From positions 1-32,800 of the forward strand of contig JADZEO010000105.1 in the NCBI GenBank assembly GCA_020850475.1: 32,800 bases of DNA. Reading direction: 5' to 3'. This stretch comes from Bdellovibrionales bacterium (GTDB lineage: Bacteria > Bdellovibrionota > Bdellovibrionia > Bdellovibrionales > UBA1609). Position numbers and translations under genes: made by a program. Below, piece by piece: positions 28,514 through 29,939 of the stretch. The notes below the pieces were generated by a model, which was not told the origin of the DNA, did not search any database, and saw nothing but the letters and a program-made list of their open reading frames with translations. Position 1 is the first letter of the stretch. Each line of letters begins with the position of its first letter.

Positions 28514-28792
28514 CCCTTTTTAGGCGGGAACCAAACAAATGGGCCCTTTCTTCGCGGCCCAGTCCCCCACCTGTCAAACGCAATAATCCAGTCTAGTTGT
28601 TAGACAGACTTATTATGAGGCACTTCGAAAAAGCGTCCAAAATTTCAGCAGTGAACCAGCTGAGGTCAACACCGGCCCCGCCCAAAATGCAATAATTTCT
28701 GCCAGCTGCCTCTGCTTGACTGAGCTTTGGGCACTTGGGAAACCCACCAGAGCGGGAGATCACCAAATTTAAAATCGGCAGGGGGTGGAGCT

Positions 28793-29521
28793 ATTTTTTG
28801 GCGGGCGTTGGGCTTGATCGTCATTTTATCCACCGGTACGTCTTGGGCTTGGGCTGAAGGAACAACTGCCGTTGAGCTCAAATCCCTCTCTCACCCATCT
28901 TGCCCCGGCCAAAAGTTTGCCGCCTTGGTGTTTGATCCACGCATTGAGTGGGTCAAAGACTCCGCCTATCGCCTTCACCTTAAAGTGGCAATGATCGAGT
29001 GCGACCCAACTGCTCGTCGCTGGCGTCAGCGTTCGGTCACCTTCGCCGATGAAAAGGGCGTTCTCACTTTTACTCACCCCTGGACGAATCTCTCCCCTCA
29101 AGTGAGCACCACAATTCCGATGGGCCTTGCCATCGGAGCAGGCAACATTTCAAAGGAAGAGCTGAACCAGTGGCTCACCGATTTGGATGGGACCCAGCCC
29201 CTCTCTGAGCTCGCCGCGGGTGAGGCCGGGGATCGCACCCAACTCCTCGGCCAACTCCAAGAGCGACTGGGCCAAACTCAGCCGTCACCCCCCGACTCCC
29301 TTTGGCTCCACCTGGTGACTTTTGACTTCGATCTGAATACGATCCTCACTCCACATGATCGTCAACTTCTCAGTACCGACAAGGGTCGCCTCAAAAAAAC
29401 GGCTCAATTGGACCTTCAACTCACGCAAAATTCTTTGGTTCGCTATCAACTGGCTCTGCATCTTGACCAGTGGGCTCAAGTGCGCGTTCACGCACTTCGC
29501 CAAACGCCTCCTCAAAATTAG
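28793..29521 (+). CDS. Exported protein of unknown function, probable ATT start
   Basis: A 242-residue exported protein. The open frame extends upstream to TTG at 28727, but those 22 codons contain rare codons, give no signal peptide and have no ribosome site. At ATT 28793 the protein would begin MFWRALGLIVILSTGTSWAW with cleavage after AWA, an ideal signal peptide, and AGGGGGTG (28780-28787) stands five bases before, matching the Shine-Dalgarno consensus at seven of eight bases. ATT starts are rare (infC is the classic case). TTG at 28808 is another possible start. The mature protein contains two Cys and PHDRQLLSTDKGRLKKTAQL near the end, with beta and helix mixed. I recognise no family. Confidence 0.7.
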   Translation: MFWRALGLIVILSTGTSWAWAEGTTAVELKSLSHPSCPGQKFAALVFDPRIEWVKDSAYRLHLKVAMIECDPTARRWRQRSVTFADEKGVLTFTHPWTNLSPQVSTTIPMGLAIGAGNISKEELNQWLTDLDGTQPLSELAAGEAGDRTQLLGQLQERLGQTQPSPPDSLWLHLVTFDFDLNTILTPHDRQLLSTDKGRLKKTAQLDLQLTQNSLVRYQLALHLDQWAQVRVHALRQTPPQN

Positions 29522-29570
29522 CTTGCTCGAAATTTCAACTCAGCTGAAAGAAATTTGACACCACTCCTGC

Positions 29571-29586
29571 CGGTACAGAGTTTGCT
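29571..29586 (+). promoter_or_regulatory. Sigma-54-like promoter before the long hairpin
   Basis: CGGTACAGAGTTTGCT has a perfect TTGCT -12 element and GG-N10-GC spacing, but two mismatches in the -24 element. It lies 50 bases after the previous gene. RNA starting near 29597 would contain both hairpins below and lead into the carbonic anhydrase gene at 29940. A 10-base direct repeat TTTGACACCA flanks it (29554-29563 and 29608-29617), and CCACTCC/GGAGTGG (29561-29567, 29620-29626) are inverted. Confidence 0.35.
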
Positions 29587-29682
29587 ACTCCCGGGTTGGG
29601 TGTTCGGTTTGACACCAGTGGAGTGGGGACTTGCCAAAAAAGTTAGTGTTCGAGTTTGTTCGTCTCCCTGACGTTCAAAGGT

Positions 29683-29781
29683 TCTTTACGTAAAATTGGG
29701 ACTCAGGTCGCCAAGAGTTCCAACGAGGACTTGGCTCGTTGGAGCTTGGGTCGCGCTCTGGGTCCCAATTTTGGGTAAAGA
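29683..29781. repeat. 99-base near-perfect long hairpin of unknown type
   Basis: Outer arms TCTTTAC (29683-29689) and GTAAAGA (29775-29781) pair fully. AAAATTGGGAC (29692-29702) pairs with GTCCCAATTTT (29762-29772), and CAG (29704-29706) with CTG (29758-29760), with wobbles between. The tip pairs TCCAACGAG (29719-29727) with CTCGTTGGA (29735-29743) around a seven-base loop. I count at least 36 pairs in 99 bases. There is no T tract on either side, and I find no target-site duplication. It occupies the 418-base gene-free stretch 29522-29939. Confidence 0.75.
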
Positions 29782-29808
29782 CAATCCTAACTCACACCCA
29801 TTAAGGCT

Positions 29809-29830
29809 AGACTTTTGTCGATAGAAGTCT
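29809..29830 (+). repeat. Second small hairpin in the carbonic anhydrase leader region
   Basis: AGACTT (29809-29814) pairs with AAGTCT (29825-29830) around a 10-base loop, 27 bases after the long hairpin. It is weak alone and is noted because of its neighbour. Nothing else is seen between 29831 and the ribosome site at about 29928. Confidence 0.3.
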
Positions 29831-29939
29831 GATGGCCCTACTGTTTACTCCCAAACTCTTCTAAAATTCCTCTGAGTGCCGCGACCGTTTCAATTTGCCA
29901 AGAGCGCGCACGAATTGTCAGCACCACGGAGGAACACCA

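Follow-up and report, generated by a model that had tools for sequence, protein, structure and literature searches.

Eight attack-phase small RNAs of Bdellovibrio have been described, which are intergenic and were reported to be absent from genomes other than those of B. bacteriovorus (PMC3627812). Template switching has been documented to create hairpin stems in a single event (PMC8794818). Short intergenic hairpins without an open reading frame are also known as REP, REPIN and MITE-type elements (PMC3116915, PMC2817692).

Here we describe a near-perfect 99-base hairpin, a quasi-palindrome, in a 32.8-kb window, that is, the whole stretch of DNA that was analyzed, which corresponds to one whole contig (C105) of a Bdellovibrionales genome assembly of 3.91 Mb in 175 contigs. 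The hairpin resembles the Bdellovibrio small RNAs in its origin from the Bdellovibrionia, its intergenic location, and the confinement of any homologs to a narrow lineage, and it has no match in Rfam. With the hairpins attributed to template switching it shares near-perfect reverse-complement arms and presence as a single copy at one locus, although it is known from one genome, without a relative that shows the unpaired ancestral state. In size, location, and lack of an open reading frame it is also similar to the REP, REPIN and MITE-type hairpins, but it is a single-copy sequence without a shared terminal motif or a target duplication.

Results

Structure and rarity of the hairpin

The outer arms of the hairpin are 83% Watson–Crick complementary (24 Watson–Crick pairs, three G-U pairs, and two mismatches), and they enclose a nested stem, which closes a 7-base loop and has its symmetry center slightly off that of the outer arms (Table 1). 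The plus-strand RNA fold of the hairpin with its basal helix contained 39 Watson–Crick and five G-U pairs, which gives 44 pairs and a folding energy of -63.2 kcal/mol. Three of these pairs belong to the short basal helix, which is external to the main arms, and about 41 pairs are left without it. The minimum free energy of the 141-nt stretch from 29660 to 29800 was -67.6, compared to -38.6 +/- 3.9 for shuffled sequences (z = -7.4), which shows a stability beyond chance, as expected for a structured RNA. These data agree with the preliminary description, which reported a long near-perfect hairpin of 99 bases at this position.

Table 1. Coordinates of the hairpin, its parts, and the neighboring features in the window
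Feature	Position	Strand	Basis or remark
Upstream gene, 264 aa, orphan	28727..29521	+	Without a Pfam family; a single, very weak relative among 46 family genomes
Non-coding gap, 418 bases	29522..29939		Between the upstream gene and the carbonic-anhydrase gene
Direct repeat TTTGACACCA	29554..29563 and 29608..29617		Either side of the sigma-54-like site
Sigma-54-like GG-N10-GC site CGGTACAGAGTTTGCT	29571..29586	+	Three mismatches to TGGCACGNNNNTTGCW; weak
Weak sigma-70-like match CTGACG-17-TAAAAT	29668..29696	+	Second hexamer within the left arm
Hairpin with short basal helix (AGG / CCT), RNA model R1	29679..29789	+	RNA fold, covariance model
99-base hairpin	29683..29781	+	Fold, inverted-repeat search, genome census
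Outer arms, 29 nt each	29683..29711 / 29753..29781		Inverted repeat
Nested stem, 12 nt	29716..29727 / 29735..29746		Within the outer arms
Small second hairpin	29808..29834	+	Lies 3' of the long hairpin, ahead of the carbonic-anhydrase gene; -12.7 kcal/mol for 29800-29845
Carbonic-anhydrase (alpha / eukaryotic-type) lipoprotein, 321 aa	29940..30905	+	PF00194, E = 1.8e-42

The two strands were not equivalent. All five non-Watson–Crick paired positions were G-U on the plus strand, while none was on the minus strand, where the fold energy was only -47.1 kcal/mol. This placement of the wobbles weakly hints at an RNA made from the plus strand. It is weak evidence because such a bias is common among hairpins selected by their plus-strand energy, and by the energy difference between strands this hairpin ranked 63rd of 414 long hairpins selected in this way from the same genome. 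After this control, the strand bias was downgraded and was not considered as proof of an RNA.

The hairpin is the sole inverted repeat of at least 24 nt, with arms within 400 nt, in the window. In a census, which covered 2.07 of the 3.91 Mb of the same genome, its ungapped inverted-repeat score of 21.6 ranked fifth, while a block-shuffled control (n = 1) contained no inverted repeat scoring 17 or more. About 93,000 windows from these 2.07 Mb were also folded, and the hairpin ranked second by the number of bases paired within a single unbranched hairpin. Several of the other top-ranked hairpins were derived from repeats or simple sequence. The observation of the hairpin is sound and statistically strong.

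Genes and signals around the hairpin

The hairpin begins 161 nt past the stop codon of the upstream gene, and it is located about 160 nt ahead of the start codon of the carbonic-anhydrase gene. The codon signal of a 43-codon frame that crosses it was unconvincing (0.02 bit per codon versus 0.14 in the two neighboring genes), and the Pfam search of this frame gave no match; hence, a coding or pseudogene origin of the gap was rejected. The preliminary description had regarded the gap as free of genes, and had placed the hairpin between the end of a gene and a carbonic-anhydrase lipoprotein; both statements hold, the latter being confirmed by the PF00194 domain encoded downstream.

Because the upstream gene is an orphan, synteny was of no help in the comparison with other genomes. 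Relatives of the carbonic-anhydrase lipoprotein, with 39-48% identity, were found in 15 family genomes. Stretches of at most 900 bases ahead of 95 related carbonic-anhydrase genes contained a few strong hairpins (e.g., L226, L195, and L180), and none was similar in its sequence to the hairpin studied here. An almost perfect inverted repeat, about 50 bp long, is located near the carbonic-anhydrase gene of another family genome (L015:1301-1440), and it could be a mobile element or an assembly artifact.

The sigma-54-like site stands 96 bases 5' of the hairpin. As 808 sites with three or fewer mismatches were present in 4.14 Mb, about 0.08 such sites are expected by chance per 418 bases of one strand, i.e., in about 8% of such gaps. 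Hence, a sigma-54-like site is indeed present upstream of the hairpin, as had been claimed, but it is a weak match, which could be a chance occurrence. The sequences CCACTCC and GGAGTGG close to this site are also able to pair with each other. Three sigma-70-like matches were found in the region, compared to 1.1 expected, and the one that extends into the left arm is probably due to chance.

Search for copies and homologs

A search of the whole genome gave a single copy of the hairpin. In the 2.07 Mb that were sampled, neither the hairpin nor its left flank had a credible partial copy, and no matches were found in plasmids, phages, or viral contigs. Thus, the several dispersed copies expected of a mobile element were not observed, and the idea of a miniature inverted-repeat element, which was raised in the preliminary description together with the remark that no target duplication was visible, did not survive the copy-number check proposed along with it. 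The remark itself was correct, since the flanks of the arms read AAAGGT and CAATCC, without a target-site duplication.

The same genome contains other repeats. A dispersed repeat, AAAGGTGCCTGCTACTTTTT, occurs in about 20 places (e.g., L098:3490-3597 and L086:11041-11117), sometimes in inverted pairs, including a 47-bp hairpin. It looks like a REP-type family, possibly mobilized by a putative REP-associated transposase. Near the starts of two contigs there are near-identical copies of a 110-base hairpin (L076:287-396 and L078:25-120), with a degenerate third copy at L121:11965-12015; this hairpin is MITE-like. The 19-mer CCTCACGCACCTTTCGGCC occurs four times, three times exactly and once with one mismatch (L054:19164-19182, L056:17470-17488, L072:6802-6820, and L059:7611-7629), and two of these occurrences are in strongly folded stretches. 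In another family genome, a long hairpin at L010:1341-1480 has the arm GTCATCCTGAGCGAAGCGAAGGACCT, which we take to resemble a repeat of many bacteria.

A DNA search gave no homologs of the hairpin in 59 relatives, with no genus-mate among the genomes met. In 369 genomes of the phylum there were just short chance matches, of which four had E values of 0.002-0.006 per genome, and none of these four was inside a comparable hairpin. Nothing was found in 47 family genomes with a covariance model, which was built from a single sequence and had little reach. The search of Rfam at gathering and relaxed thresholds assigned the hairpin to no family, and the best sub-threshold matches were mostly generic microRNA hairpins.

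Discussion

Two readings of the hairpin are the most likely: a structured RNA particular to this lineage, or a harmless remnant of an error in copying. We tentatively prefer the former, at somewhat less than even chances, in the form of a plus-strand RNA in the untranslated leader of the carbonic-anhydrase lipoprotein gene. A structured leader or a small RNA had also been suggested in the preliminary description, the interpretation of which is partly supported by the present data. Counting for such an RNA are the folding far beyond chance, which few hairpins in the sampled part of the genome exceed, and the location of both flanking genes and of the sigma-54-like site on the same, plus strand. 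The genome also encodes sigma-54 and RNase III, which counts in the same direction. If, as we infer, the hairpin is transcribed from this strand, transcription would begin upstream, either by read-through from the preceding gene or at the sigma-54-like site, and the transcript would fold into the long hairpin ahead of the start codon. The folded RNA would serve mainly as a stable double-stranded block, either a substrate of RNase III or a barrier to exonucleases, which would separate or stabilize the carbonic-anhydrase message. Alternatively, the hairpin could be the body of a small RNA. A more specific scheme, in which a lineage-specific dsRNA-like hairpin would be driven by sigma-54, processed by RNase III, and would control the carbonic-anhydrase lipoprotein message or act in trans, appears quite improbable. 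The failure to find a homolog either by DNA search or by the covariance model means that no compensatory changes are available, which counts against an RNA. The carbonic-anhydrase genes of relatives are also generally devoid of such an upstream hairpin, the few present being unrelated in sequence, which argues in the same direction. On the other hand, missing homologs would not be unusual for an RNA of this group, given the narrow distribution of the Bdellovibrio small RNAs (PMC3627812).

The same lack of relatives, together with the single copy and the absence of a target duplication and of a conserved context, is consistent with a neutral or near-neutral quasi-palindrome, which would have arisen when a template switch during replication gave one arm the reverse-complement sequence of the other, and which would now be decaying in a gap with no other role. 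The slightly off-center nested stem, and the two mismatches and three wobbles of the outer arms, are what such decay would be expected to leave. What speaks, weakly, against this origin is that most stem positions are still paired on the plus strand, and that the changed pairs are wobbles, not A-C mismatches; we regard this origin as only slightly less likely than the structured RNA. It is unlikely that the hairpin is a relic of a mobile one, such as a miniature inverted-repeat element, a doublet of the REP type, or the ends, now joined, of an insertion sequence that was lost. Even though the same genome hosts the multi-copy AAAGGTGCCTGCTACTTTTT and 110-base hairpin families, neither of them matches the hairpin, the searches for further copies in the whole genome, for partial copies in 2.07 Mb of it, and for counterparts in plasmids, phages, and viral contigs were negative, and no target duplication is visible. 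With a single copy and no credible relative, an active miniature element is not supported. The location downstream of a gene end, and the ability of GC-rich hairpins to halt polymerase, could suggest that the hairpin serves the upstream gene as an intrinsic terminator, but its stem greatly exceeds the normal length, it begins 161 nt past the stop codon, no T tract follows it, and no terminator-like site was called there. These data make a terminator very improbable, in agreement with the earlier view that the hairpin is unlike one.

Whichever of these readings is correct, the hairpin locus is not a new kind of system, and its significance is modest. If it is not transcribed, it is a clean single-copy quasi-palindrome. 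If it is transcribed, it would be a candidate structured RNA adjoining a carbonic-anhydrase gene, in a class of bacteria, predators among them, that has received little study.
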